Of a stretch of DNA of 64,000 bases, positions 2,901 to 27,544 are shown piece by piece; within the stretch, counting starts at the first letter, position 1, and every line of letters starts with the position of its first letter. The DNA comes from Shewanella loihica PV-4. GTDB taxonomy: Bacteria > Pseudomonadota > Gammaproteobacteria > Enterobacterales > Shewanellaceae. The stretch spans positions 1,860,001 to 1,924,000 of the forward strand of contig NC_009092.1 of NCBI RefSeq assembly GCF_000016065.1, written 5' to 3'. The notes under the pieces are model-generated. The model searched no databases, was not told the DNA's origin, and worked only from the letters and a program-made list of their open reading frames with translations. The position numbers were made by a program, and so were the translations under genes.

Positions 2901-5900
2901 GCGGTTCTCCAAGGCGATGTTGCATGAGTTGAGAGATGATCAGGGATAACAGGGCTAACCTATCCTTGTCTGTCTCTGTCGGCATCAAGAATTTTAACTT
3001 ACTTGGGCCGTCCATACGATAATTTTGTGGCTGACTCTGTAATAGTCCGATGATAAAGCCAGGATCTACACAGTGATCGTTATTAAATTCCAGGCTACCG
3101 CCCTTGGCGTGCATCTCTATCTTGGCGATGCCGAGCGCCGTTGCCTGGTGCTTGAACAGCGAGACCTCCATCAGGTTCTTGGTTGCCTGAGGCAAGAGGC
3201 CGAAGCGATCGATCAGCTCGACCTTTAATTCGTCCAGTGCCTGGGCGGTGGCGCAGTTGGCGATACGCTTATAGAGCGACAGGCGGATGTTAACGTCGCC
3301 CACATAATCTTCCGGCAGCAGGGCTGGGATCCGCAGGTCAATCTCACACTGTCCCCTGAGCATCTGATCCAGGGAAGGCTCCTTGCCCTCCTTGAGGGAT
3401 TTCACCGCATCTTCCAGCATCTCCATGTAGAGGGTAAAGCCTATTTTGGAGATATGACCGCTCTGCTCATCGCCCAGGAGTTCACCCGCGCCGCGGATCT
3501 CGAGATCTTGAGTCGCCAGCATGAAGCCTGCGCCGAGATCTTCCAGCGCGCCAATGGCCTCCAGACGCTTGATGGCATCCTTGGTCATGCGTTTTGGATG
3601 GGGCATCATCAGATAGGCGTAGGCCTGATGATGTGAGCGCCCCACACGGCCCCTGAGCTGATGCAGCTGCGCCAGGCCGAAGTTATCGGCCCGCTCTATG
3701 ATGATGGTGTTGGCGCTGGGTACGTCGATGCCCGTCTCTATGATGGTGGTACACACCAGCACATTGTATTTCTGGTGATAGAAGTCAGACATCACCTTTT
3801 CAAGGTCGCGTTCTCTCATTTGACCATGGGCGGTGACAACTCGCGCCTCGGGCAGTAGCGCCTCAATCTCCCGGGCGCGCTTCTCTATGGTCTCGACACT
3901 ATTGTGGAGAAAATAGACCTGGCCGCCCCTTAAGATCTCACGCAGCAGCGCCTCGCGCACCGTGGCATCATCATATTCGCGCACGAAGGTCTTAACCGCC
4001 AGGCGCTTGGCTGGCGGCGTGGCGATGATGGAGAGATCGCGCATGCCAGACATCGCCATGTTGAGGGTACGCGGAATAGGGGTTGCCGTCAGGGTCAAAA
4101 TATCAATATTGGCGCGCAGGGCCTTGATCTTCTCCTTCTGACGCACGCCGAACCTGTGCTCCTCGTCGATGATAAGCAGGCCTAAGTTTTCAAACTTGGC
4201 CTCAGACTGCAGCAGCTTATGGGTACCGATAACGATATCAACCTGGCCAAGCTCCAGCTGCTTGAGCACCGCCTGTTGCTCCTTGGCAGTCTTAAAGCGT
4301 GACATCACCTCTATCTTGATCGGCCAGTCGGCAAACCTGTCTTTAAAGTTTTCATAGTGCTGCTGAGCCAGTAGCGTGGTAGGTACCAAGATAGCCACCT
4401 GCTTGCCGTCGTTGACCGCTACGAAGGCGGCGCGCATCGCCACCTCAGTCTTACCGAAGCCTACGTCGCCACACACCAGGCGGTCCATCGAGATGGGGCT
4501 GCACATGTCGGTGAGCACGGCGTCGATGGCAGTTTCCTGATCCACGGTTTCTTCGAAGGGGAAGCTGCCGGCAAACTGAGCGTACTCTTCGCGATCCAAT
4601 CGGCAGGCCTCGCCGGGGCGGGCCTGACGGCGGGCGTAGACATCTAACAGTTCGGCGGCCACGTCGCGGATCTTCTCGATCGCCTTGCGTTTGGCCTTGG
4701 TCCAACTCTCATTGCCCAGCTTGTTGAGCTGCGGTGCATCATCGGCCCCGACACTGTACTGGCTGATGAGGTTGAGGGAGGCGACAGGCACATAGAGCTT
4801 GTCGCCACCGGCGTATTCCAGTTTCAGGTACTCGGCGACCAGGCCGCCCGTGTCCAGGGTTTCCAGTCCCTGGTAGAGGGCGACGCCGTGATCCAGATGC
4901 ACTATGGGTTGACCGACTTTGAGCTCGGCCAGATCCTTGATAAGCGCATCCTGGCTTACCTGACGCTGTTTATCTCGTCTGCGTTGCTGGGCGATGCGCT
5001 GACCAAACAGCTCGGTTTCACACACCAGTGCCCAGCTAGGACCCTTCTTGGGGTGATAGATGGCGCCTTGAGACAGCGGCGCAACAATTAAGCCAAAGGG
5101 CTGAGGCTTATGGCTGAAGCTGTCCAGATGGTCCAGCAGCGCAGGTTTAATCTCTATCTTGGCCAGCAGTTCCAGCAGCGCCTCGCGGCGGCCTTCCGAT
5201 TCGACGCAGAATAAAATTGGTGTGCCGCCATTGGCAAATTCTTTAAGGCTGATAAGTGGCTGTTTCAGCTTATGGTTGGCGGCGATGTTAGGCAGTGCCT
5301 CGAGTTGGGCCTCAACACAGGTGCCAGTGGCTTCATTACCCTTGATTAGGAAGCGCGGCAGCTGTTTGAAGGCCTCGAAGACCTGTTCGGTCAGCAGGTA
5401 GAGATCCTTTGGCGGCAGTAGTGGCCTCAGGGGATCGACCCGGCGGTTCTCATAGCGCTGGTTAATTTCCTGCAGGTGGTGTTTGGCAGCATTCTCTAGA
5501 TCGCCCACCTGCACCAATTGGCACTCGCCGGGCAGATAGTCAAACAGGCTCGCCGTCTCATCGAAGAACAGGGGCAGGTAGCTCTCGATCCCGGCGGGCA
5601 TCACCTTGCGGCTCACCATCTGATAGATGGACTCCGGCTCCTTGACCACTACCTCAAACTGGCGGCGGTAACGCTGGCGAAACCCTTCGATGGCGGCGTC
5701 ATTGGTCGGGAACTCCTTGGCCGGCAGCAGGCGAATCGATTCAATCTCGCCGCTGGAGCGTTGGGTTTCCGGGTCAAATTCGCGGATCGATTCGACCTCA
5801 TCATCGAACAGCTCGATGCGATAGGGGCTCTGGGCGCCCATGGGGAAGAGATCTATGATAGAGCCGCGCACGGCAAACTCGCCATGCTCATACACCTGCT

Positions 5901-6375
5901 CCACGTGATGATAGCCGGTATTGACCAGCTGGCTGCGCACCGCTTCCAGGGGATAGTTGTCACCCTTGCTGAGCAGCAAGACGTTGCCGGTTAAGAATGA
6001 TTGCGGCGGCAACTTCACCATCAGGGTGCTCATGGGCACGATCACCAGGCTATGGCCGGCGCTTGGGATCCGCGATAGGGTCTCAAGCCGTTGAGATACC
6101 AGATCCTGGTGGGGCGAGAAGCTGTCGTAAGGCAAGGTCTCCCGGTCGGGGAACAGCATCACGGGGATCGATTTTGGCGCTAACAGGTAGCCTAGCTCTG
6201 CCTCTAGCCTGAGCGCGCTGGGCGTGTCTGGCGTCACCACTAAGGTCATGCTGCTATACTGCTCGCACAGCTTAGCCAGGCTTATCGCCCGGGCGGCACC
6301 GGTTAACTGGCTCAGGGTTTGGGGCGACTTAACCCCTTTGACTTTAGGTGGTGTGAGGATGGAAAAAGCATTCAT
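2893..6375 (-). CDS. mfd: Transcription-repair coupling factor Mfd
   Basis: Full-length at 1160 residues. Mfd is a DNA translocase that removes RNA polymerase stalled at lesions and recruits UvrA. Domains in order: the N-terminal UvrB-homology region (LFPDRETLPYDSFSPH near residue 75), the RNA polymerase-interacting CarD/TRCF domain near 480-560 (VGQPIVHLDHGVALYQGLE), the RecG-like helicase core with Walker A GDVGFGKTE near 640 and DEEH in LLIIDEEHRFGV, helicase motif TATPIPRTL, QLRGRVGRS (motif VI), and the C-terminal TRCF domain. PilZ gene, mfd and csiV are all on the minus strand with short gaps and may share transcripts. Confidence 0.98.
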   Translation of the reverse strand: MNAFSILTPPKVKGVKSPQTLSQLTGAARAISLAKLCEQYSSMTLVVTPDTPSALRLEAELGYLLAPKSIPVMLFPDRETLPYDSFSPHQDLVSQRLETLSRIPSAGHSLVIVPMSTLMVKLPPQSFLTGNVLLLSKGDNYPLEAVRSQLVNTGYHHVEQVYEHGEFAVRGSIIDLFPMGAQSPYRIELFDDEVESIREFDPETQRSSGEIESIRLLPAKEFPTNDAAIEGFRQRYRRQFEVVVKEPESIYQMVSRKVMPAGIESYLPLFFDETASLFDYLPGECQLVQVGDLENAAKHHLQEINQRYENRRVDPLRPLLPPKDLYLLTEQVFEAFKQLPRFLIKGNEATGTCVEAQLEALPNIAANHKLKQPLISLKEFANGGTPILFCVESEGRREALLELLAKIEIKPALLDHLDSFSHKPQPFGLIVAPLSQGAIYHPKKGPSWALVCETELFGQRIAQQRRRDKQRQVSQDALIKDLAELKVGQPIVHLDHGVALYQGLETLDTGGLVAEYLKLEYAGGDKLYVPVASLNLISQYSVGADDAPQLNKLGNESWTKAKRKAIEKIRDVAAELLDVYARRQARPGEACRLDREEYAQFAGSFPFEETVDQETAIDAVLTDMCSPISMDRLVCGDVGFGKTEVAMRAAFVAVNDGKQVAILVPTTLLAQQHYENFKDRFADWPIKIEVMSRFKTAKEQQAVLKQLELGQVDIVIGTHKLLQSEAKFENLGLLIIDEEHRFGVRQKEKIKALRANIDILTLTATPIPRTLNMAMSGMRDLSIIATPPAKRLAVKTFVREYDDATVREALLREILRGGQVYFLHNSVETIEKRAREIEALLPEARVVTAHGQMRERDLEKVMSDFYHQKYNVLVCTTIIETGIDVPSANTIIIERADNFGLAQLHQLRGRVGRSHHQAYAYLMMPHPKRMTKDAIKRLEAIGALEDLGAGFMLATQDLEIRGAGELLGDEQSGHISKIGFTLYMEMLEDAVKSLKEGKEPSLDQMLRGQCEIDLRIPALLPEDYVGDVNIRLSLYKRIANCATAQALDELKVELIDRFGLLPQATKNLMEVSLFKHQATALGIAKIEMHAKGGSLEFNNDHCVDPGFIIGLLQSQPQNYRMDGPSKLKFLMPTETDKDRLALLSLIISQLMQHRLGEPRV

Positions 6376-6450
6376 GAAAACAGACTAAGGCCAACAATCG
6401 ACAATGATGCGGCCATTGTAGAGACTTAGCCCCGTCAGTGCCAGTGAAAA

Positions 6451-10342: not shown

Positions 10343-11698
10343 TTAGCGACTTTCCCGGTAGGCGCGTTTTTGTTGATACATCCGCTTGTCGGCATCTGAG
10401 AGCAACTCTTTGATGTCGGCATTCTGACCATCATAGATTGCATAGCCTATGCTGAGTGAGGGCGTCAGTTGTTGTGACTGCCAGCTAAAGGGCTGGGATT
10501 CTATCGCCTGGGTGATATGCGCCATGATCTCCTCGATTTCCTGCATGTCGGTGAGCTCATAGAGCAAGATCAGAAACTCATCGCCGCCAAATCGGGCGAC
10601 CGAGCCCTTAATACCAACCTCTGTCACAAGACGATTGGCGATATATTTTAGCAGCTCATCGCCCGCTTCATGCCCCAGCTCGTCGTTAACCCCTTTAAAG
10701 TCGTTGAGATCTATGTTGAGCAGGGTAAAAGGGGGCTGATTTGGTTTGTTCATCAGACGGTCGAGTTCGTTGATGATGAAGCGCCGATTAGGTAGGTGGG
10801 TCAATTCATCGTGCAGCGCCGCCCTGTGGGTGTGCTGATAGTTGCGAAACAGGAGTAGCATCAGCATATACAAGGTAAAGGCCGCGATCGTACCTATACC
10901 GCCTATGCCAAGGCGCAGCTGGCCGATGCGTTCGAGATTCTCAATATGAAACCTTGCTGCCATATTCCAGGTGGCGCTGGGTAACTTGATGGGGTAGATC
11001 ACATCGGCATTGTCGAAGATGCTGGCATCACCGTAGAAAACCTGTTCGGGTTCGTTGGCGGTGATCTGTTTCTTGATGGCGATATCGCCCCCTTGAAACT
11101 GGGTGATCCCTGTGTCATGGAGTAATTGGTTATAGTTCATCACTACGCTCACCCCGCCCCAGTATTGGGTGTTTTTGGGGTAGTCGGCGAAGATAGGGTA
11201 GCGTGCGATGAGTCCCAATCCGCCTTGCACTAGATTTACCGGGCCGGCGATATACACCGACTGCTGCTCCTTGGCCAGTAATACAGTCTTTAGCTGGTTT
11301 GGCTGGGTGCGAAAGTCGAATCCAACTGCCGCTTCGTTGCCTTTGAGGGGATAGACTAAGGAGATAACATTGTTTGGCGCGATGGCGACGTTGCGCACGT
11401 ATTGCGCCTTGTCGAGCAATTTAGCGGCTATCACATGCCAGTTTTTCATGGCAAATTCGGGATCTATAGTCACCACAGTGGCCAGGCTATCGGCCAGATA
11501 GGTGTCTTTGTAGATGGTGGCCTCGAAGTTAAAGCGGATCAGCGCCAGGTTCTTGCGCAGGTTTTCCTCTTCTTGCTGGATCTCATTGTCGACAAAGTAT
11601 TTTGTTAGCGCACTGATGGTGATCACTGAGGCGAGCAGAAACAAGCAGGAGAGCAGTGCGAAGATCGCAACATGTTTTCTATTTGAATTTAAGTGCAT
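10343..11698 (-). CDS. Membrane-anchored diguanylate cyclase (GGDEF)
   Basis: Protein of 451 residues with TM1 at about 10-32, a periplasmic CHASE/Cache-like sensor region (about 33-255), TM2 (about 262-283, TLYMLMLLLF) and a C-terminal GGDEF domain. The active-site motif RFGGDEF is intact at 369-375, so cyclic-di-GMP synthesis is expected. The inhibitory RxxD I-site, normally five residues before GGDEF, reads GIKG and is absent, so product inhibition by the usual route is unlikely. It is transcribed alone and convergently with lolE. The ligand of the sensor is unknown. Confidence 0.9.
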   Translation of the reverse strand: MHLNSNRKHVAIFALLSCLFLLASVITISALTKYFVDNEIQQEEENLRKNLALIRFNFEATIYKDTYLADSLATVVTIDPEFAMKNWHVIAAKLLDKAQYVRNVAIAPNNVISLVYPLKGNEAAVGFDFRTQPNQLKTVLLAKEQQSVYIAGPVNLVQGGLGLIARYPIFADYPKNTQYWGGVSVVMNYNQLLHDTGITQFQGGDIAIKKQITANEPEQVFYGDASIFDNADVIYPIKLPSATWNMAARFHIENLERIGQLRLGIGGIGTIAAFTLYMLMLLLFRNYQHTHRAALHDELTHLPNRRFIINELDRLMNKPNQPPFTLLNIDLNDFKGVNDELGHEAGDELLKYIANRLVTEVGIKGSVARFGGDEFLILLYELTDMQEIEEIMAHITQAIESQPFSWQSQQLTPSLSIGYAIYDGQNADIKELLSDADKRMYQQKRAYRESR

Positions 11699-18140: not shown

Positions 18141-18860
18141 GTGACTGTTTCTAGCCTTCAACATGTGATTGATAAACTACTTGTCGAAAATCAGGGCGAA
18201 CGAATAGTCAGTTTCGAGCATCAAGGCCGCAAGTATTGGCTTAAACAGTCAGAACGCCTTACCGGCGCCATGCGTTGGCTAAAGTCCCAGCCCCAAGCGG
18301 CGTTGCAGCTCGAGATTTCAACCCTCACTCAACTCGCCAAGCGAGGTGCCCCTGTGCCCGAACTGGTTGCCAGTGGCGAAGGTTTTCTGGTGGTTGCCGA
18401 TGTGGGCATGCCCGTCAATGGTTGGTTAAATGCCGACATCTCAGAGGCCGAGAAGCTAAAGATATTGCAAGATAGTGCGACTGGGTTAGCGCATCTGCAT
18501 CTTAAAGGCTTGGCTCATGGCAGACCTGCGCTTAGGGATATCTGCTGGGAAGAGGGAGATGTTGCCTTTATCGATTTTGAGGCGAATCAGCAAGACAGTG
18601 ACATGCATAGGCAGCAGATCAGGGATCTCCTCGTCTATATCCACAGCCTGTACCGTTACATAGGGCCCCATCCTGAGATCGCCGAGCCTGTCATTGCAGC
18701 CTATCGCGCCGCGGGCGGAGAGTCACTCTGGCAGGCGTCCAAGCAAGAGATGGCTAAATGGCAATGGCTAAACTATCTAATCGCACCACTTAGATCTATC
18801 GGCGGTAAAGATCTGCGCCCCGTCTATTGGTTACTGCGCCACTTTAAACAGACCCATTAA
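18141..18860 (+). CDS. Atypical small protein-kinase-like (Kdo/RIO-like) enzyme
   Basis: A 239-residue single-domain protein starting at GTG, with GGAG eight bases upstream. The fold signals are kinase-like: a lysine in KYWLKQ near residue 33 as candidate ATP-binding Lys, a catalytic-loop equivalent HGRPALRDI at 126-134, and VAFIDFE at the DFG position. In the loop the canonical HxD base is arginine and the usual Asn is Asp, so the chemistry is either rearranged or lost. Families of this kind (lipopolysaccharide Kdo kinases, RIO-like kinases) include envelope-modifying enzymes; the position after lipid A genes is suggestive but not proof. No TM segment is seen. Confidence 0.65.
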   Translation: MTVSSLQHVIDKLLVENQGERIVSFEHQGRKYWLKQSERLTGAMRWLKSQPQAALQLEISTLTQLAKRGAPVPELVASGEGFLVVADVGMPVNGWLNADISEAEKLKILQDSATGLAHLHLKGLAHGRPALRDICWEEGDVAFIDFEANQQDSDMHRQQIRDLLVYIHSLYRYIGPHPEIAEPVIAAYRAAGGESLWQASKQEMAKWQWLNYLIAPLRSIGGKDLRPVYWLLRHFKQTH

Positions 18861-19316: not shown

Positions 19317-19359
19317 CTTGGAGCTTTCGAAGTGATGTTGACTTTGAGAGGTCCAAGCT
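19317..19359 (+). promoter_or_regulatory. Probable riboswitch expression platform (ribosome-binding-site hairpin)
   Basis: CTTGGA (19317-19322) can pair with TCCAAG (19352-19357), and AAGT with ACTT inside it. This encloses the ribosome binding site GAGAGG (19346-19351), eight bases before the ATG at 19360. No intrinsic terminator is seen between aptamer and gene, so translational control is the simpler model. Confidence 0.55.
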
Positions 19360-22300
19360 ATGAGTTCAGTTCATTGCGCAGCTGCGCGTACCGATTCTAC
19401 TTTCCTGAAAACCTTTGGTTTGGGCCTATTGGGCGCAGGCCTGTTGTCGGCGTCGGCTATCATGCCTGCAGATGCGGGCACTCATGGTGAACAAACCTCT
19501 GCGGCGGCCCAGGCTAAACGTGATGCCAAGCAACAGGCGCGTCTGACTCATAAGGCGGAACTTGAAACTCAGACGCTGCAACTTTCTGCAGTTGCAGCGC
19601 AATACCTGGATGCCACTAAGTCTAATGGTGCATCTCATGCCTCTGACGCCGCGCTTTACCAGCAACTTGAAGCGCTGGTGGCGGCTAGACAAGTAGAACA
19701 GCAATCACTCATCGCACTCGATCCTTTCAGTGTCGTTTCTTCTGTACTGCCAACGGCTAAGCGTCGTGGCATACCCGCCGAGATCCAAGCCAAACTAGCC
19801 CAGAAAAAGGCAATCAGCGGTGAGCTGGAAATGGTCTATGAAGATTTTGATGACGCAGGTGAAAATCGTCTGCAGTACATGGTGCGCACCGAAACTGGTC
19901 TGGTTAAATTTTTCTTGGCTTCAGGTAGTTCAAAAGCTCAGGCTAATCAATTACAACCCGGAGCAAAGGTTCGTGCAGAAGGTTGGCTATTTGGCGGCGA
20001 TGAGGCTGGCGATGCCTTAATTGGCGATCTCGAAGTGCTTGCCCTAACCGATGGCAACACAGTTTCCTCTTCGGGCACCGGCGCTGCGCTTTCTCTTACC
20101 GATACCACTGGTGAACAGCGCACCTTAGTACTGCTGGTTAATTTCCAAGACAATCCTCAACAGCCTTGGACTCTGGCCGAAGTACAACAGATGGTATTTG
20201 GCAAAGTCAATGATTTCTATCGCGAGGCCTCATACGGTCAAACTTGGTTAACTGGTGATGTTAAAGGTTATGTAACCCTGCCAATCAACAGTACTTGTGA
20301 CTATTTCGGCATGGACAGCTACGCGCAGCAGGCGGCCCGCGATAGCGGTATCGACGTCAGCCAGTATCAGCGCTTAGTCTATATGATGCCTCAAAACAGC
20401 AGCTGTGGCTGGCGTGGTCAGGGTACAGTGGGTGGTTCACCTTCGCGTGCTTGGATTAATGGTGAGCTAAATCTGATGACTATCGGTCACGAACTGGGTC
20501 ATAACCTGGGACTCAAGCACGCTAAAGAACTTAACTGCGGTAGCGGTTATCTCAGCGATGCTTGTGTCGAGATCACTTATGGCGACACCCTGGATATCAT
20601 GGGTAAGTCTGAGGGGCACTTTAACCTCTTCAATAAGGCGCGTTTAGGTTGGCTGAGTGAGTCTCGTGGTGAAATCGCAACAGCCGATGCCGATGGTACT
20701 TATCGTCTTGAGCCGTTAGTGGGTGATTCACAAGGTGGTGCTAAGGGATTAAAGGTACGTCGTGGTACCGATAGCCTGACTGGTGAGCCATTATGGTATT
20801 ACCTAGAGTATCGTCAAGCACAAGGTTTTGACAGCTTTATGGCTGGTAAAGCGGTTACTGAAGGCGTATTGGTACACCTAAATAGCAGTGCACAAGATAT
20901 CGAAAGCAGCCAGCTACTGGATATGACACCAAAGAGTTCACTCTATGACCTGGATGATGCGGCGCTTCAGGCAGGTTATAGCTATAGCGATGACACTGCT
21001 GGTGTAACTATTACCACAGAGTCGGTAGATAACGCTGGTGTTGACGTTACCGTGGCCTATTCAGGTGGCACATGTGTACAGGCTAATCCTACACTTGCGC
21101 TTTCTCAAAACAGTGATTGGGTTGCACCAGGTACAGCTGTTACTTATAGCGCAACTGTAACCAACAACGATAGCTTAGAGTGCGGTGATTCTCAGTTTAG
21201 TGTTAACGTTCAGGTACCCGCTAATTGGAGTGCCAGCAGTGCAAGCCTAAGCTTGGCACCCGGCGCCACAGCTAATGTGAGCTTTAGTGTCGTTTCGAGC
21301 GGCGATGCCAACGACGGTTTCTATGACCTAGATGTCACCGCGTACAATGCACAAGATAGCAATCTAGTGGCTACCGGACTGGTTAGCTATGTTGTTCAGG
21401 CTCCAGTTGCACAGTGTGTGTTAGCAGCGCCTCAGTTCGTACTGACCAACAACAGCAGCGGTGAGGTTGCACCCGGTACAGGCGTGGTTTACCAAGGCAC
21501 AGTGACTAATCTAGACAGTGATAGCTGCGATGCGAGCGACTTCAATTTGGCAGCCAATGTGCCAGCGGGTTGGTCGGCAACTGCGACTAAGGTGAATCTT
21601 GCTCCTGGCCAAAGCCAGAACGTCAGCCTAACGGTGACTTCTAGCCTAAGCGCAGCCGATGGACAATTTGATTTCAACCTGATTGCTAGCAATGGTCAAA
21701 ATGCGGGACTACAAAGCAGTGCGAATGCCAGCTATACGGTTCTTGATCCTGCAAAGCAATGCACTCTGGCTCAACCAAGTGTCAGCGTGAGCGGTGGAGC
21801 TGGCGAGTATGATGCGGGTAGCCTGGTACCCTATACAGTGACAGTGACAAACCAGAATGCTGACAGCTGTGCCGATGCCGTGTTTGTGATCAGCGCAACC
21901 GTACCTCAGGGCTGGAACGCCAACGGGGCGACCGTTAGCCTAGCAAGTGGTCAAAGTACGAGTGTCGTGGTGAGTGTTAGCTCTGCGCAGTCTGCGACAG
22001 CAGGTGCCTATGGTCTGGGCTTTAGCGCGGCAGATAAGAGCGACAATCAATATCAAGCAAGCGCACAGGCACAGTACAAGGTGGCTCAGCAAGCGAATAC
22101 AGCACCGGTTGCGGTAAACGACAGTGCATCGGTATCTAGCGGTTCATCAGTCATCATCGCGGTGCTGAGCAATGACAGTGACCCTGAAGGTGATACCTTA
22201 ACTGTGGTTAGCGTGACTCAAGGTAGCAAAGGTAGCGTAACCTTGCTGGCCGATGGTAGCGTGAAATATACACCGGGTAAGCGTTTCAAGGGTAGCGATA

Positions 22301-22428
22301 GCTTTAGTTATACCATTAGCGACGGTGAGCTAACTGCGACGGCGACAGTGACCATAGGTCAGAGCAGCGACAGCACTGGTGGCAATACCGGTGGCGGTAC
22401 TGGCGGCAAAGGTAACGGTAAGAAGTAA
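19360..22428 (+). CDS. Secreted zinc metalloprotease (gametolysin/M11-like) with three cysteine-bearing repeats
   Basis: A 1022-residue exported protein. Layout: N-terminal signal region (hydrophobic 19-37); a propeptide-like alanine/glutamine-rich part to about 240; a zincin domain with HELGHNLGLKH, giving H377, E378, H381 and H387 (HExxHxxGxxH), and a Met-turn candidate M414 in DIMGKS; three immunoglobulin-like repeats of about 114 residues starting at C572, C686 and C801, each with paired cysteines; a VCBS/cadherin-like domain (about 915-1000, APVAVNDSASV...NDSDPEGD); and a Gly-rich basic tail (GGNTGGGTGGKGNGKK) without a TM helix. It is probably a matrix- or surface-targeted protease. Assignment to M11 rather than M6 rests on the HExxHxxGxxH pattern. 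Control by the c-di-GMP aptamer upstream is predicted. Confidence 0.85.
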   Translation: MSSVHCAAARTDSTFLKTFGLGLLGAGLLSASAIMPADAGTHGEQTSAAAQAKRDAKQQARLTHKAELETQTLQLSAVAAQYLDATKSNGASHASDAALYQQLEALVAARQVEQQSLIALDPFSVVSSVLPTAKRRGIPAEIQAKLAQKKAISGELEMVYEDFDDAGENRLQYMVRTETGLVKFFLASGSSKAQANQLQPGAKVRAEGWLFGGDEAGDALIGDLEVLALTDGNTVSSSGTGAALSLTDTTGEQRTLVLLVNFQDNPQQPWTLAEVQQMVFGKVNDFYREASYGQTWLTGDVKGYVTLPINSTCDYFGMDSYAQQAARDSGIDVSQYQRLVYMMPQNSSCGWRGQGTVGGSPSRAWINGELNLMTIGHELGHNLGLKHAKELNCGSGYLSDACVEITYGDTLDIMGKSEGHFNLFNKARLGWLSESRGEIATADADGTYRLEPLVGDSQGGAKGLKVRRGTDSLTGEPLWYYLEYRQAQGFDSFMAGKAVTEGVLVHLNSSAQDIESSQLLDMTPKSSLYDLDDAALQAGYSYSDDTAGVTITTESVDNAGVDVTVAYSGGTCVQANPTLALSQNSDWVAPGTAVTYSATVTNNDSLECGDSQFSVNVQVPANWSASSASLSLAPGATANVSFSVVSSGDANDGFYDLDVTAYNAQDSNLVATGLVSYVVQAPVAQCVLAAPQFVLTNNSSGEVAPGTGVVYQGTVTNLDSDSCDASDFNLAANVPAGWSATATKVNLAPGQSQNVSLTVTSSLSAADGQFDFNLIASNGQNAGLQSSANASYTVLDPAKQCTLAQPSVSVSGGAGEYDAGSLVPYTVTVTNQNADSCADAVFVISATVPQGWNANGATVSLASGQSTSVVVSVSSAQSATAGAYGLGFSAADKSDNQYQASAQAQYKVAQQANTAPVAVNDSASVSSGSSVIIAVLSNDSDPEGDTLTVVSVTQGSKGSVTLLADGSVKYTPGKRFKGSDSFSYTISDGELTATATVTIGQSSDSTGGNTGGGTGGKGNGKK

Positions 22429-22445
22429 GCTATATCAATAATAAA

Positions 22446-22475
22446 AAGCCAAGGGCATCGCCCTTGGCTTTTTTT
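22446..22475. terminator. Bidirectional intrinsic terminator between convergent genes
   Basis: AAGCCAAGGGC and GCCCTTGGCTT form an 11-bp perfect stem with a 3-nt loop, flanked by A-runs on the left and seven T on the right. It can end both the protease transcript and the opposite gene. Confidence 0.92.
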
Positions 22476-22511
22476 GTGCGGAGGTATTACCGTTAAGTAT
22501 TTCTCACGCTA

Positions 22512-24800
22512 TTACTCAATTGCACCTACCTGGATGCTGACATCGGCGGTAGACTTGTCATTCTGGCTATTTGTCAGTTCAACCACTACGTCTTCTAAGA
22601 AGGCGATAGGATCTGTATTTTCAAGTCCTGGTTTGAGTTCTATTGTAAAGGCACATTCATAGTCCTCAGTGCCTGAACCTGTGTAGCCGAAGAGGTGATT
22701 AAAGCCACAAGCACCGTATGAGGTACCATTGTACATACCTCCTCCGTTGATAATCTTGAAGCCTGCTGTATCTGGTTCGGCGAAGACATCTAATATGCCT
22801 ATAGTAAGCTTAGTCAGATTGGCGTTGTTCACGTCAGCATTATGCATGCCTAGGACGACTAACATGGTTGCAGCAAAGTCCATATCCACAGCAGGAGCGG
22901 CCGGTGTAAAGGTCACTGTGGCATCATCGGAATCAGACACAGCTTGGCCATCTTCGTCGGTACCATCTATGGTGGCCACGTTGGTGTGGACATCGGTGCG
23001 GTAACCTTGAATTTGCAGCGTGATAGTACAGCTGGCGTTTTCACCAGGTAGAAGCACGAAGCCAGCTAATGGTGTATCTGCAATTGGGGCTCCATTCTTC
23101 ATATCGACCATACAGTCACCTGTCAGAACACCAAATATGTCATCTGTCAGTGTGGCAAAGGTTACTGAGTCAACGGTATTTTGACCGCCTACTTGATCGT
23201 CAACGCTGAACCAGAAGGTAAAGTCGACGTCGCGGTAGATATCTGGATTATCACCGGTTTCCAGCACAGAGGTTGGATTAGCAGTTTTCTCCAGAGTGAT
23301 CATAGATGGAATATCATTGATGATCACGGTGGCCGAATCGGCATTCATGGCTTCAGTATTTTCATCGTCGACCGCTTTGGCGGTTGCGGTGTTGGTATGA
23401 GAACCTGCGCCTGTGCCACTGATGAATTTATCGAAACTACATTCATAGTAGCCACCGAAGGCAATGGTTCCACCGGTCGCACAAGTACCTTGACCATTAA
23501 GATCGCCAAACTTGTCATCGTTCAGATAGGTCAGGGTTAGCGGTGAGTCATAGTCTGCAGCAGTATTGTCGACTCTAACTGTGTAGGTCACCCAAGCGCC
23601 TGATTCAGGAACTTGATCAGGAACTGCAGATTTATCGACTGTGATGCTAGGTGGTAGGTTCGTCACGTTCACCTGAAGCACGTTAGAACAGTGATCGCCA
23701 TCGACGCCGCCTATGGCTGCGCAGCTGCCACCATCCACAACGGGATCGTTGTTCTTATCTATCAACGCTAGCTTGATGATGTCGTTATACAGTTCAGGAC
23801 TCTGGTCGTCAGGCAGATCTCTGTCGACGATAGTGACAGTGAACTGACAGCTGTAGGAGCCGCTAGGTACTATCTCACCCCCGTTGGCAGGTTGACTACA
23901 GTTACTGGCGGTGAGGTATACACCATCAGCTGCACCTGCTGCACCGACACCATTCCAAAGATCCAGCATGGTTTCATAACTACCATCGGCGCCTTCGTCG
24001 ACTTTATCGTATAGATCGGTAATAAAGAGTGAAGTATAGGCGTTAGGGTTATCGAAGCTGAGTTTAAAGGTATAGGTGCCACCCGGTTCGGTGTGGGTGT
24101 CGGTTCCTATAAGCTCTTTAGTAATGGTTGGTGCATTAGGTTTAATAAATACATCTATGTCGAATGAGTCACAACGACACTTAGATGGGGTACCGGGCGC
24201 TGCAGGATCATCTTCGCTACAGTCTTCGCCAGTCTTGTTATGCCAGGCCATACAGTAGTTAAACTCTGCCTTGCCGGAATTATCATCGTCACGACAGAAG
24301 AGAGTGATCTCTTCATCGGCATATACGTGGGTTGGGTTGTAACCTGCTGCCTTACTGATATCGGCACAGGCATCTAGGCCTTCCTCCAGATCCACCCCTG
24401 GACCATCTGTTCGGCCGAGTAAGATTGAACATTCATTGTTAGGGTTAGCATCTTGAGCACTCCAGTTACCTTCGGGCAGGTAGACAGAGTAATCGTAACG
24501 TTCGTTTGCCGTGGTGGTAATGGTCACATCGGCGATGAAGGTGACTTCGTCACCCAGATTACATTCGACCTTGGCATTAGGATCGTTTGGATCTCGAATG
24601 TTGTCCACTTTACTGACGCGAACGTCATTAGCGGTACAGTTTAGGTTAAAGCCCGCTTGCTCAGCCATACAGGCCTGATCCATCTTTTGTGGGAAGAAGG
24701 AGGCGTTTGCGGTCGTGATGGTAGCGCCATAGAGGCTGGCGCCGCTTATGAGGACGATGCCCAACGCCCTGACAAGCCGGTTGCATTTAAATCGTTTCAT
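22512..24800 (-). CDS. Large secreted cysteine-rich protein with DUF11-like repeats
   Basis: A 762-residue protein with a signal peptide (RALGIVLISGASLYGATITTANA) and no TM segment after it. The body has repeated beta-sandwich units resembling DUF11/isopeptide-type adhesin domains, recognisable by PSITVDKSAVPDQVPESGAWVTYTV and PSMITLEKTANPTSVLETG, each ending in a T(A)T-V strand (DSATVIIND, DDATVTFT). About 20 cysteines, many near the N-terminus, suggest disulfides. I do not recognise a named family; a surface or matrix structural role is plausible. AAAGG lies eight bases before the ATG. Upstream are a sigma-54-type promoter and a palindrome. A DsbA-like gene is the next gene upstream on the same strand. 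It converges on the protease gene across a shared terminator. Confidence 0.7.
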   Translation of the reverse strand: MKRFKCNRLVRALGIVLISGASLYGATITTANASFFPQKMDQACMAEQAGFNLNCTANDVRVSKVDNIRDPNDPNAKVECNLGDEVTFIADVTITTTANERYDYSVYLPEGNWSAQDANPNNECSILLGRTDGPGVDLEEGLDACADISKAAGYNPTHVYADEEITLFCRDDDNSGKAEFNYCMAWHNKTGEDCSEDDPAAPGTPSKCRCDSFDIDVFIKPNAPTITKELIGTDTHTEPGGTYTFKLSFDNPNAYTSLFITDLYDKVDEGADGSYETMLDLWNGVGAAGAADGVYLTASNCSQPANGGEIVPSGSYSCQFTVTIVDRDLPDDQSPELYNDIIKLALIDKNNDPVVDGGSCAAIGGVDGDHCSNVLQVNVTNLPPSITVDKSAVPDQVPESGAWVTYTVRVDNTAADYDSPLTLTYLNDDKFGDLNGQGTCATGGTIAFGGYYECSFDKFISGTGAGSHTNTATAKAVDDENTEAMNADSATVIINDIPSMITLEKTANPTSVLETGDNPDIYRDVDFTFWFSVDDQVGGQNTVDSVTFATLTDDIFGVLTGDCMVDMKNGAPIADTPLAGFVLLPGENASCTITLQIQGYRTDVHTNVATIDGTDEDGQAVSDSDDATVTFTPAAPAVDMDFAATMLVVLGMHNADVNNANLTKLTIGILDVFAEPDTAGFKIINGGGMYNGTSYGACGFNHLFGYTGSGTEDYECAFTIELKPGLENTDPIAFLEDVVVELTNSQNDKSTADVSIQVGAIE

Positions 24801-24853
24801 AATATTGACCTTTATTAACCAGTTAATATGGATAAAACGTCTTGTTAGTTCAT

Positions 24854-24894
24854 CACTTTATGTCGGTGAAATTGGGCTCAATTTCGACAAAGTG
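24854..24894 (-). promoter_or_regulatory. Long leader hairpin before the secreted protein gene
   Basis: In the transcript of the minus strand, CACTTT-GTCG-AAATTG pairs with CAATTT-(CAC)-CGAC-(AT)-AAAGTG around the loop AGCC: sixteen base pairs with two small bulges. It sits 54 nt before the ATG, inside the leader expected from the sigma-54 promoter. It matches no riboswitch class I know. Confidence 0.5.
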
Positions 24895-25013
24895 CCTATT
24901 CGTTGTTGCTAGGTTATTACTACTATTTCGGCGTATGCCGCTTTTAGTGGCTGCATTGATGGCGAATAAAACAGTGCCTCATGGTGCAGCGTCCAAATCG
25001 ATGGCCTAATAAG

Positions 25014-25029
25014 AGCAAGCATTGGGCCA
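25014..25029 (-). promoter_or_regulatory. Sigma-54 (-24/-12) promoter for the secreted cysteine-rich protein
   Basis: On the minus strand the sequence reads TGGCCCAATGCTTGCT. It has GG and GC spaced by exactly ten bases and agrees with the RpoN consensus TGGCACG-N4-TTGCW at all positions except two in the -24 element. Transcription would start about 200 nt before the ATG at 24800. Confidence 0.75.
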
Positions 25030-25091
25030 GAAAGATAAGCTTTTGATAAATAGTGGATTACTTTGATTTTGGGGCGATTGGATTAGCTGGG

Positions 25092-25111
25092 GTGTTACAT
25101 ATGTGTAACAC
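25092..25111. promoter_or_regulatory. Perfect 20-bp palindrome, probable enhancer (UAS)
   Basis: GTGTTACATATGTGTAACAC is a perfect inverted repeat with 8-bp arms around TATG. Its centre lies about 75-85 bp upstream of the sigma-54 promoter, in the range where enhancer-binding proteins act. The Fis-type HTH activator encoded at 26174-27544 is the natural candidate to bind it. A weaker repeat GTCCA-N9-TGGAC follows at 25120-25138. Confidence 0.65.
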
Positions 25112-25288
25112 TGTGCGTTGTCCAAATGAAACCTGGACATGACGCTTGCTAAAGATGAGATTTTAATGATTGGCCAAGCTTATGGTGCTTTTGAAAAAAT
25201 GGTACTGGGTGAGGAAAGTAAAGCGCCGCCAAGTGATACTAGATAAATGCCTTTATAAAGGGCGTTGCGGCGCCAGATTTGAGATAGT

Positions 25289-25336
25289 TAAGTTAATTAA
25301 GAGTTAAGTTAATTAAGAGTTAAGTTAGTTGAGTTA
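25289..25336. repeat. 16-nt tandem repeat, about three copies
   Basis: TAAGTTAATTAAGAGT occurs twice exactly and once diverged, just downstream of the DsbA-like gene. No terminator hairpin is seen here. The remaining part of 24801-25351 holds the leader, promoter and palindrome listed separately and no gene. Confidence 0.8.
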
Positions 25337-25351
25337 GTCGAGTAAGTTCAG

Positions 25352-26140
25352 TTAATTCGTCTGGGTCGGTTTTTCTAAGGCGTCGATCACCGCTTTGAAA
25401 GTGTCATAGCTTTGTGCACCAACCACTAGCTTGGGCTCTATGAGTCGATTGTTTTCCAGTTTACCTATGAGGAAGCTTGGCGTACCACGAACGCCTATCG
25501 ATGAGCCATAGCCGATATCCTGCTCTATCTTGCTCATGATGGCTTGATCTTCCAGGCAGGCAGCGAATTTTGTCATGTCTAGCGAGAGCTGGGTGGCGGT
25601 ATCTTGGTAGAGTTTGTCCCCTAGTTGCCTCATGTTTTTAAACAGGGCGTCACGCATGGGCCAATAAGCGTCCTGTTGCAGGCTACAGTTGGCGGCTATG
25701 GCAGCGCCTTTAGCCTTAGGGTGAAAACCTAAGGGGAAGTCTCTGGCGATATATTTCACCTTGCCGGTGTCGATATAGTCGCTTTTGATCTTGGTGAAGG
25801 TGTTGTCCATGTATCGTTTGCAGTAGGGACATTGATAATCGGAAAACTCTATGATGGCGACCTGCGCCGTCGCCTCGCCTAAGGCCGGGAGCTTACCATC
25901 TTCGCCCGGATTTATTTGCGTTGGTAGGCTTCTATGCTGCGGTTCCTGACTCTTCATGGCAATGGTGTGTATCTCTTTCACCTGGCTGCCCATAATGGCC
26001 ACTTGCTGTTTTAATTGGCCCATCTCCTGTTTCAGGTAGGCGAGCTCCTTCTCTAACTTGTCGTCATTTTTTTGCTGACAGGCAGCAGTAAAAAACAGCA
26101 AAGATAGGCAGACTATCACTGTCGAATGAGTAGATGGCAT
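25352..26140 (-). CDS. DsbA-family thiol oxidoreductase, probable lipoprotein
   Basis: A 262-residue protein. I place the start at the ATG 26138-26140, which has GAGGA at good spacing; a GTG at 26164 in frame would add eight unlikely residues. The N-terminus is a lipoprotein-type signal (LSLLFFTAAC; Thr at -3 is slightly unusual), then a predicted coiled coil (about 20-60, LEKELAYLKQEMGQLKQQV), then a thioredoxin-fold DsbA domain with CPYC (FSDYQCPYCKRYM) and the cis-Pro loop GVRGTPSFLIG. It probably works in the periplasm as oxidase or isomerase. It lies 33 bp after the sigma-54 activator gene on the same strand, so the two probably form an operon. The cysteine-rich secreted protein next door is a possible client. 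Confidence 0.85.
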   Translation of the reverse strand: MPSTHSTVIVCLSLLFFTAACQQKNDDKLEKELAYLKQEMGQLKQQVAIMGSQVKEIHTIAMKSQEPQHRSLPTQINPGEDGKLPALGEATAQVAIIEFSDYQCPYCKRYMDNTFTKIKSDYIDTGKVKYIARDFPLGFHPKAKGAAIAANCSLQQDAYWPMRDALFKNMRQLGDKLYQDTATQLSLDMTKFAACLEDQAIMSKIEQDIGYGSSIGVRGTPSFLIGKLENNRLIEPKLVVGAQSYDTFKAVIDALEKPTQTN

Positions 26141-26173
26141 AAGTCGATCCTCGTTTGGTGCCACTGACCTTGT

Positions 26174-27544
26174 CTATAGCGTTATCTTGCACTTCTTGAT
26201 GAGGCGATAGAAAGTCGTTCGTGAGATGTTGAGTTCACGGGCCGCCGCCGAGATGTTGTGGTTATTGCGCTTAATGGCGGCCAATAGAAGTTCGGTATCA
26301 ATTTCGGTTCTGTGCTGCGCCAGATCGACCACATCGGGATCATCGTTTGCCGAACAAGCGAATTTAATGCCGAGGTCGGCTTCTGTAATGATGTCGCTTT
26401 CGGTCATGATGATGGCGCGTTGAATGCGGTTTTTAAGTTCGCGCACATTGCCTGGCCACTGGTAGTTGGTCATGGCATGTAACGCGTCCTGGTGAAACTG
26501 AAATTGACGATTGGGTGGAGCGAGTTTGGTTAAGTAATCTTGAGCCAAGAGAGGGATATCTTGCTTATGTTCTCTTAAGCTGGGTAGCTCTATTTGTATG
26601 ATATTGATTCGATAGAATAGATCTTCCCTGAATTTCCCCTCTTCGACGGCGTTTTCCAAATTGACATGGGTGGCGAAGATGATGCGACAATCCACCTCGG
26701 TGGACTTCTGGCCGCCGATACGTTCGATATAGTGCTCTTCAAGAAACTGCAGCAGATTGATCTGTAACTCGAGTGACAGATCGCCTATTTCATCTAAAAA
26801 CAGGGTGCCCTTGTTAGCTCGCTCTATTCGACCTATGTATTGCCTGTCGGCGCCGGTGAAGGCGCCTTTCTCATGGCCGAACAACTCTGAATGAATGAGG
26901 GTTGGGGGCAGGGCGCCGCAATTCACCGTGATAAAGGGGCCATTTTTGCGAGACGATAGAGAATGAATCAAGTTGGCGCACAGACCCTTACCCGTGCCGG
27001 TTTCGCCGCCTATCAGTACGGTTTCATCTGACTTAGCGATCTTATAGAGATTATCGCGCAGGGTCTGCATCACGCTTGATTCACCAAAGAAGAAGGACCT
27101 TGGTTGATGCGTGGTTTTCTCCTTACTCCATTGCTCATTTAATTGGGCCATGCCACAGAGGTGCCCTAAGGTGTGATCGAGGCGCTGCCAATCAATGGGA
27201 AGGTGATGAAAATCCAGGAAATAGTCGGTAAAGCAGAAGCAAAGGTTCCCCAGGTTTTTAGGGCTGTCTAAGGAGATAGCCAGCCAGAGTAAGCGGGGTT
27301 GACGCGCGGACAGTAGTTCTATGGCGCGCAGTACCACCTGCTGGTGAGGGAGATCTATGATGGCGATGGCGATCTGACAGGGAGCGCTCTCTAAGGCTTT
27401 ATATGCCGCACTAAGAGTACCTGCATGATTGAAATGCCATTGTGTAGTATCGGTATGTTCATCTGTAAGACACGCTTCATCCGTGAGGTTTAATACCAAT
27501 ATGTTACGTTCCTTGTGAGTTAAGTTCCTCTTACGGTTACTCAC
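26174..27544 (-). CDS. Sigma-54-dependent transcriptional activator with receiver-like N-terminal domain
   Basis: A 456-residue enhancer-binding protein starting at GTG with AAGGA upstream. Domains: residues 1-140, a degenerate receiver-like domain (an Asp is kept in AIIDLP near 64); 150-385, an AAA+ domain with Walker [10 protein letters not shown] (179-187), the sigma-54 contact loop GAFTGA (227-232), Walker B LFLDE and the arginine-finger region FREDLFYRI; 412-456, a Fis-type HTH ([23 protein letters not shown]). The N-terminal stretch [25 protein letters not shown] reminds me of VpsR-type regulators, but this is from memory. It probably drives the sigma-54 promoter at 25014-25029. DsbA-like gene follows. 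Confidence 0.88.

Follow-up and report, generated by a model that had tools for sequence, protein, structure and literature searches.

A conserved VpsR-type activator, enhancer and sigma-54 promoter within a candidate c-di-GMP-linked surface-protein module of Shewanella

What controls the gene for a secreted, cysteine-rich protein of 762 residues in a 64,000-nucleotide stretch of Shewanella DNA, and do its neighbours belong to the same system? The stretch (the window) spans positions 1860001-1924000 of one 4,602,594-base genome whose close relatives, like its named homologues, belong to Shewanella. A preliminary description had proposed that a neighbouring activator acts through a palindromic upstream activating sequence (UAS) on a promoter for the sigma factor RpoN (sigma-54) ahead of the secreted-protein gene, and that a DsbA-like lipoprotein helps to fold the product. 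The conserved regulatory unit rightly suspected there is real, and it sits inside a larger module. Our best reading is a surface or matrix module of four genes that has two regulatory ends and comprises the activator, the DsbA-like protein, the secreted protein (cargo A) and a convergent metallopeptidase (Table 1). While the earlier regulatory observation itself holds, the VpsR type of the activator, an element resembling a site for integration host factor (IHF), the convergent peptidase, its riboswitch and the exchange of a block of DNA had been overlooked. Sequence comparison tilts in favour of the view that activator, UAS and sigma-54 promoter control the secreted protein and that the module is linked to cyclic dimeric guanosine monophosphate (c-di-GMP). 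Literature searches found no account of this locus or of its gene make-up.

Table 1. Features of the module, in window coordinates
Feature	Coordinates	Strand	Evidence
c-di-GMP-I riboswitch aptamer RF01051	19203..19288	+	65.8 bits, E 1.2e-10
Hairpin covering the Shine-Dalgarno sequence GAGAGG (19346-19351) of the peptidase gene	19323..19351	+	Folding, alignment
Secreted M6/M11-type metallopeptidase, HELGHNLGLKH	19360..22428	+	Sequence read, domain search; convergent with cargo
Exchanged block (peptidase after leader, and cargo)	19469..24921	.	No DNA similarity to genomes G033 and G092
Secreted Cys-rich protein (cargo A), 762 residues, 21 Cys, tandem immunoglobulin-like domains, DUF7507/DUF11-type	22512..24800	-	Domain and structure searches
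Sigma-54 -24/-12 promoter TGGCCCAATGCTTGCT	25014..25029	-	GG-N10-GC; conserved among loci
IHF-like element TATCAAAAGCTTA	25036..25048	-	Between UAS and promoter; unexpected conserved columns
UAS (enhancer) palindrome, VpsR-type box, arms GTGTTACA-N4-TGTAACAC	25092..25111	-	Conservation; resembles published VpsR/BrpR sites
DsbA-like thioredoxin lipoprotein (Thioredoxin_4; CPYC)	25352..26164	-	Translation, domain search
VpsR-domain sigma-54 activator, intact GAFTGA, Fis-type helix-turn-helix	26174..27544	-	Domain searches, structure matches, alignment

The promoter lies where it had been described, with exact GG-N10-GC spacing; its sequence occurs once in the genome and predicts a transcription start at about 25003, counted from the -12 element. 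The palindrome had been called perfect over 20 bp, which goes too far: GTGTTACATATGTGTAACAC pairs at 9 of 10 positions, with T and G at positions 9 and 12 unpaired, and consists of two perfect 8-bp arms around TATG. Its far edge lies 82 bp from the TGG of the promoter, and about 98 bp separate its centre from the predicted start. A -24/-12 element alone is unremarkable, as the window holds 36 matches with at most two mismatches against a mean of 43 in shuffled sequence (two of the 36, that of the secreted gene among them, have a single mismatch). Thus, the promoter carries weight because it is conserved and not because single matches are rare. Nowhere else in the genome do its 16 defined bases recur with two mismatches or fewer; eight more places appear at three mismatches, and a reversed control pattern has ten places at up to three. 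Among 129 genomes of the genus the exact 16 bases occur in three, in one copy each and always at this locus, and the control pattern occurs in one.

Conservation within Shewanella carries the regulatory part of the argument. A relative of the 762-residue protein is present in 24 of the 129 genomes (an alignment of the protein covers 19 of these homologues), and the activator accompanies it in all 24, above a limit of E 1e-80, on the same contig and no more than about 6 kb away. Retention of the palindrome in relatives that keep the secreted gene had been named beforehand as one of the observations on which the proposal should stand or fall, and within the genus a like site is kept in 24 of 24. 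Each upstream region carries TGTTNCA-N4-TGNAACA with 0-2 mismatches together with a GG-N10-GC element scoring at least 7 of 10, at a start-to-start spacing of 81-83 bp in 20 loci and 91-93 bp in four. When each of these 24 regions was shuffled 200 times with dinucleotides preserved, the score of the site-promoter pair (spacing 75-100 bp) was never reached for 22 loci and was reached in 0.5% of shuffles for the other two; we therefore reject chance at a single site as the explanation.

An ungapped, promoter-anchored alignment of 26 loci (24 after an 85% redundancy filter) has a mean identity of 38%; conservation peaks over the palindrome, over the -24/-12 element and from 19 to 7 bases before the TGG. 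The last peak contains TATCAAAAGCTTA, which in the window fits WATCAANNNNTTR, presumably the IHF consensus, at 9 of 9 defined bases. Most other loci match 6-8 of the 9 positions at or beside the same spot, and many single-locus matches are no better than chance, which is why we term the element IHF-like. Additionally, 39 sites (30 of them distinct) fall into spacing classes about a helical turn apart, with four at 70-71, 30 at 81-83 and five at 91-93 bp. C7 is conserved in all 39 and G14 in 38, in a consensus that is partly circular, since the finder rewarded those positions and searched spacings of 60-109 bp. Covariation of the inner arms was dropped as proof. No UAS-promoter pair was found within 400 bp upstream of the 15 activator and 14 peptidase genes scanned, which have stray single matches only, and control of either gene by the same UAS was thus rejected.

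The activator is as first described, with Sigma54_activat (226.5 bits), AAA lid and HTH_8 domains, Walker A and B motifs and an intact GAFTGA. Its N-terminal part is a VpsR domain (PF20161, 49.4 bits against a cut-off of 23.7), and the VpsR structures 7y19 and 7v2b match the protein. The genome encodes one VpsR-domain protein and one RpoN. Of 53 genus genomes with a hit above E 1e-80 we aligned activators from 33, namely 22 of the 24 with cargo A and 11 of 14 others of at least 46% identity, nine of these 14 being covered by genomic context; the hits in the remaining 15 genomes, at 38-44% identity, are probably other activators. GAFTGA is present in 29 of the 33, and mean identity to the window activator is 82% at the DNA-binding end and 39% in the VpsR domain. 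The candidate phospho-acceptor D64 is aspartate in 24% of the 33, which is not the pattern of a response-regulator aspartate, and phosphorylation of D64 as a general signal was rejected because the residue is not conserved.

VpsR of Vibrio cholerae and BrpR of V. vulnificus have the same architecture of VpsR domain, AAA+ domain and Fis helix-turn-helix. The VpsR site of V. cholerae craA, TTTCACAATTGAGA (PMC6890996), has the form TTTCA-N4-TGARA, as do many of the sites found here. In the BrpR palindrome the fifth C and twelfth G are important (PMC8268162), and they lie as far apart as C7 and G14, a comparison in which our consensus is partly circular. VpsR is reported without GAFTGA (PMC3162934) and described as RpoN-independent (PMC5552954). 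The activator studied here, by contrast, retains GAFTGA, and a -24/-12 promoter precedes the gene that it presumably controls. A study of V. fischeri was unable to locate sites of the V. cholerae type in its data (PMC10804989), suggesting that the form of the site may vary within the VpsR family. BerB of Burkholderia cenocepacia differs in having no N-terminal sensory domain and in controlling an exopolysaccharide regulator, whereas the presumed target here is a secreted protein with a paired peptidase.

The product under this proposed control has a Sec-type leader, read in the sequence, and the 21 cysteines noted earlier; NCBIfam has no family for it. Structure comparison yields common immunoglobulin folds. 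Single domains resemble RbmA of V. cholerae, a secreted matrix protein with fibronectin type III domains that is processed by the secreted proteases HapA, PrtV and IvaP (PMC5605196); this likeness is structural, with no sequence relation shown and with integrins scoring as high or higher. The DsbA-like gene encodes the lipobox TAAC and the CPYC reported before, and ATG at 26140 is a likelier start than 26164. It accompanies cargo A in 22 of 24 genomes, so that the expected co-occurrence of the three genes is complete for the activator and nearly so for DsbA. The two genomes without it, G122 and G134, hold the two most divergent cargo A copies, with 22 and 23 cysteines, and in four related loci without DsbA the secreted protein has 14-18. 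The evidence for the proposed role in folding is circumstantial, and whether the lipoprotein helps to form the cargo disulfides seems to us, on these sequences, evenly balanced.

In three genomes the place of the secreted gene is taken by a gene for a different cysteine-rich protein of about 570 residues and 18 cysteines (cargo B; the mean predicted local distance difference test score of its structure model is 57). The activators of these genomes, G033, G092 and G135, are 95, 93 and 66% identical to that of the window, and a like site and promoter precede cargo B at 81-82 bp. BLASTP of the 762-residue protein against cargo B of G033 found nothing (best E 0.8), and profile comparison of the two cargo types gave a weak match in the DUF11-like part (probability 69, E 4e-5). 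Cargo B also occurs in G015, G078, G100 and G152, there without DsbA, with activators 47-50% identical and, 70-71 bp away from the promoter, a site starting TGC; to recognise three of the four sites, the consensus had to be relaxed upon viewing the sequences. Counted over the eight cargo B loci examined, the UAS-promoter layout is present in 5 of 8 by the first consensus and in 8 of 8 once the fourth base is relaxed to C or T. Genome G007 (locus L079, 1934-14861) has both cargo types in tandem, each with a convergent peptidase, and a single activator; the type A site there is weak.

The replacement involves both convergent genes. In alignments to G033 and G092, homology of about 86% ends at window positions 19485 and 19469, just past the peptidase leader. 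It picks up again at 24921, a point 82 bases beyond the predicted start and within the 5' leader of the secreted gene. These genomes keep the riboswitch and peptidase leader on one side and the UAS and promoter on the other (the promoter stretch is 69-71% and the DsbA-activator stretch beyond it 83-86% identical); in place of the secreted protein and the mature peptidase they have others, the peptidase being about 30% identical. G135 keeps the same two ends, with one extra 62-base match inside the peptidase gene and no riboswitch detected. Thus, because protein and peptidase are replaced together, the pair appears tied more firmly than by adjacency. Across the genus a peptidase relative of the long type adjoins 22 of 24 cargo A genes and is missing from the same two genomes that lack DsbA, and a short type scores better beside 7 of 8 cargo B genes; the short-type margin is narrow in L079 (301 against 295 bits), and the exception is locus L089.

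The peptidase matches Peptidase_M11 above its cut-off and the M6 model below it. PrtV, we assume, belongs to family M6. Ahead of the gene stands what is almost certainly a true type I c-di-GMP riboswitch: the match to RF01051 scores 65.8 bits against a gathering score of 35, covers model positions 1-87 of 87 and ends 71 bases before the start codon. Nine of 29 scanned peptidase loci carry the aptamer, in the window, four Shewanella relatives, Salinimonas, an Alteromonadaceae metagenome-assembled genome and two Pseudoalteromonas. A model built from eight of these aptamers found no others among 55 loci, except in a second record that apparently duplicates the genome of L073. In all eight sequences folded, GAGAGG is covered by a hairpin with one and the same stem. 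The flank CGAAAGC 5' of the aptamer, invariant in 9 of 9, is complementary to GCUUUCG in the hairpin and may offer a switching path. We slightly prefer a peptidase that would be off at high c-di-GMP. In V. cholerae, inhibition of gbpA by c-di-GMP is independent of the riboswitch Vc1 (PMC4545359), and an aptamer alone thus does not tell the outcome.

In one Shewanella genome a VpsR-type activator lies between two genes for GGDEF diguanylate cyclases (G060, locus L088, 7543-12997), with no relative of cargo or peptidase nearby. A link of the module to c-di-GMP is suggested by these cyclase neighbours, by the family of the activator and by the riboswitch on its partner. Taken together, we propose that the activator would bind the palindrome and, aided by a bend in the DNA at the IHF-like element, drive RNA polymerase with sigma-54 at the promoter, so that the cargo is transcribed; from the comparisons above this step, the best supported, is very likely. 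It is fairly probable, by analogy with Vibrio VpsR, that the activator answers c-di-GMP rather than phosphorylation and that the protein is made at high c-di-GMP. The co-encoded lipoprotein would assist with disulfides, while the riboswitch and the hairpin over the ribosome-binding site would control the peptidase, most simply keeping it off at high c-di-GMP. As c-di-GMP falls, the peptidase would cut or release its partner protein, and that it acts on this partner is, in our judgement, reasonably probable. The complete picture, a Gram-negative reciprocal switch in which a sigma-54-dependent VpsR-family activator turns on a disulfide-rich matrix protein at high c-di-GMP, a riboswitch holds the dedicated peptidase off until the level falls, and the pairs are swapped as cassettes between regulatory ends that stay conserved, is offered as a tentative proposal.

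The closest analogue is in Clostridioides difficile, where the adhesin CD2831 and the peptidase PPEP-1 are inversely controlled by c-di-GMP and PPEP-1, which has a type I riboswitch, cleaves the adhesin (PMC6447587, PMC6366702). In the window, too, a presumed surface protein stands beside a secreted metallopeptidase bearing a type I c-di-GMP riboswitch. Where C. difficile has a class II riboswitch on the protein arm, the window has an activator and a sigma-54 promoter, and the protein families differ. The likeness therefore lies in layout and riboswitch, cleavage and opposite control being known for C. difficile.

Beyond the genus, we examined 24 of 68 loci from named genomes. Control of the secreted gene by activator, enhancer and RpoN, which the Shewanella loci bear out, meets a mixed record there: ten loci have a VpsR-type activator hit, and the layout at 81-83 bp is present in five of them (Salinimonas, the Alteromonadaceae metagenome-assembled genome, two Pseudoalteromonas and Colwellia). 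The VpsR domain was confirmed in L100, L104, L105, L118, L128 and L135, a fragment in L133 falls just under the cut-off, and L101, L102 and L110 are counted by the activator hit. A Psychromonas contig of 11.4 kb has the layout and carries no activator. Five Vibrio loci (L120, L123, L129, L132 and L160) keep the secreted gene, DsbA and the -24/-12 element, and four of them the peptidase; no activator hit was found in the DNA fetched and no good site, the best, in L123, matching 8 of 10 bases at 69 bp. A promoter without a site where the activator is absent is expected if the site belongs to the linked activator. These five come from eight Vibrio loci, L121, L125 and L130 having been left out because they have no DsbA or peptidase hit and an uncertain start.

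Several other explanations have to be set beside this reading. Promoter and palindrome might both be non-functional, resembling such elements by chance, and the abundance of lone -24/-12 matches in the window speaks for this; pairing, spacing and conserved columns are nevertheless kept across loci whose upstream DNA is so diverged on average, and we regard this as extremely improbable. The palindrome might instead be bound by a different dimeric regulator, with the adjacent activator acting elsewhere. The genome search that had been called for, for the palindrome near -24/-12 elements, speaks for this in part, since it gave seven loose matches against two for the reversed control, as do the non-Shewanella activator loci without the site. 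Only the window site, however, has a score-9 element at 82 bp (one other of the seven has an element of score 7 at that distance), the architecture of the site resembles VpsR and BrpR sites, and the Vibrio loci that have no activator have no good site. We consider a different regulator improbable. A wide regulon of the activator in this genome was rejected or left weak after genome-wide scans for the palindrome and for promoter pairs.

A narrower account would keep the control of the cargo through UAS and sigma-54, with a signal other than c-di-GMP and with peptidase and riboswitch as an independent neighbour. The presence of the riboswitch in just nine of 29 peptidase loci and the modest conservation of the VpsR domain speak for it, whereas the joint change of cargo and peptidase in the block exchange and the tracking of cargo type by peptidase type (22 of 24 and 7 of 8) argue against independence. 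We judge this account rather unlikely and prefer the four-gene module linked to c-di-GMP.

A number of observations weigh against that module as we draw it. The riboswitch was not found in 20 of the 29 peptidase loci, one of which (L119) runs off its contig; the closed hairpin is favoured by 14 kcal/mol over the alternative fold that was tested; and the 14 scanned peptidase genes are not preceded by the UAS-promoter pair. GAFTDA replaces GAFTGA in 4 of the 33 genus activators and in both Aeromonas ones. The consensus of the 39 sites has the circularity described above, and its inner arm positions pair in just 19 and 12 of the 30 distinct sites. One Shewanella genome, G012, keeps the activator, with cargo, DsbA and peptidase absent from 20 kb. 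Outside the genus, five of the ten activator loci are without the standard layout: in Moritella a poor site accompanies activator, DsbA and peptidase, in Aeromonas media the site is a full match and lies 171 bp from the promoter, and A. taiwanensis, Thalassotalea mangrovi and an uncultured Thalassotalea have no site in position (the start codons being uncertain in the first and last).

What sets this locus apart from the known kinds is an activator of the VpsR family that carries sigma-54 features, together with a presumed pair of surface protein and peptidase that is probably linked to c-di-GMP. If the proposal is correct, a VpsR-family activator has retained the sigma-54 features lost in V. 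cholerae VpsR, and a second, independently built pair of surface protein and protease tied to c-di-GMP exists outside the clostridia. Surface protein and peptidase would then change as one cassette under kept control elements. Such cassette swapping would allow the outer surface to change while its control stays.

Further arrangements were seen around related activators and in the window itself. G134 (locus L082) has two UAS-like palindromes 54 bp apart (3944-4017) before a gene for another secreted protein (4123-6438) beside the activator; this protein is weakly SdrD_B-like, below the cut-off, and no GG-N10-GC element scoring at least 6 was found in the 300 bp before its gene. In G012 (locus L075, 9365-10747) the activator directly adjoins a relative of the window gene at 18141-18860. 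Two Aeromonas loci (L118, 4033-11349; L128, 3885-11280) combine a VpsR-domain activator with a type A cargo and a relative of the type B cargo; their UAS-like sites stand at different distances, in L118 at 171 bp from a -24/-12 element. Within the window, a gene for a CHASE-GGDEF diguanylate cyclase lies at 10343-11698, about 7.5 kb from the riboswitch.

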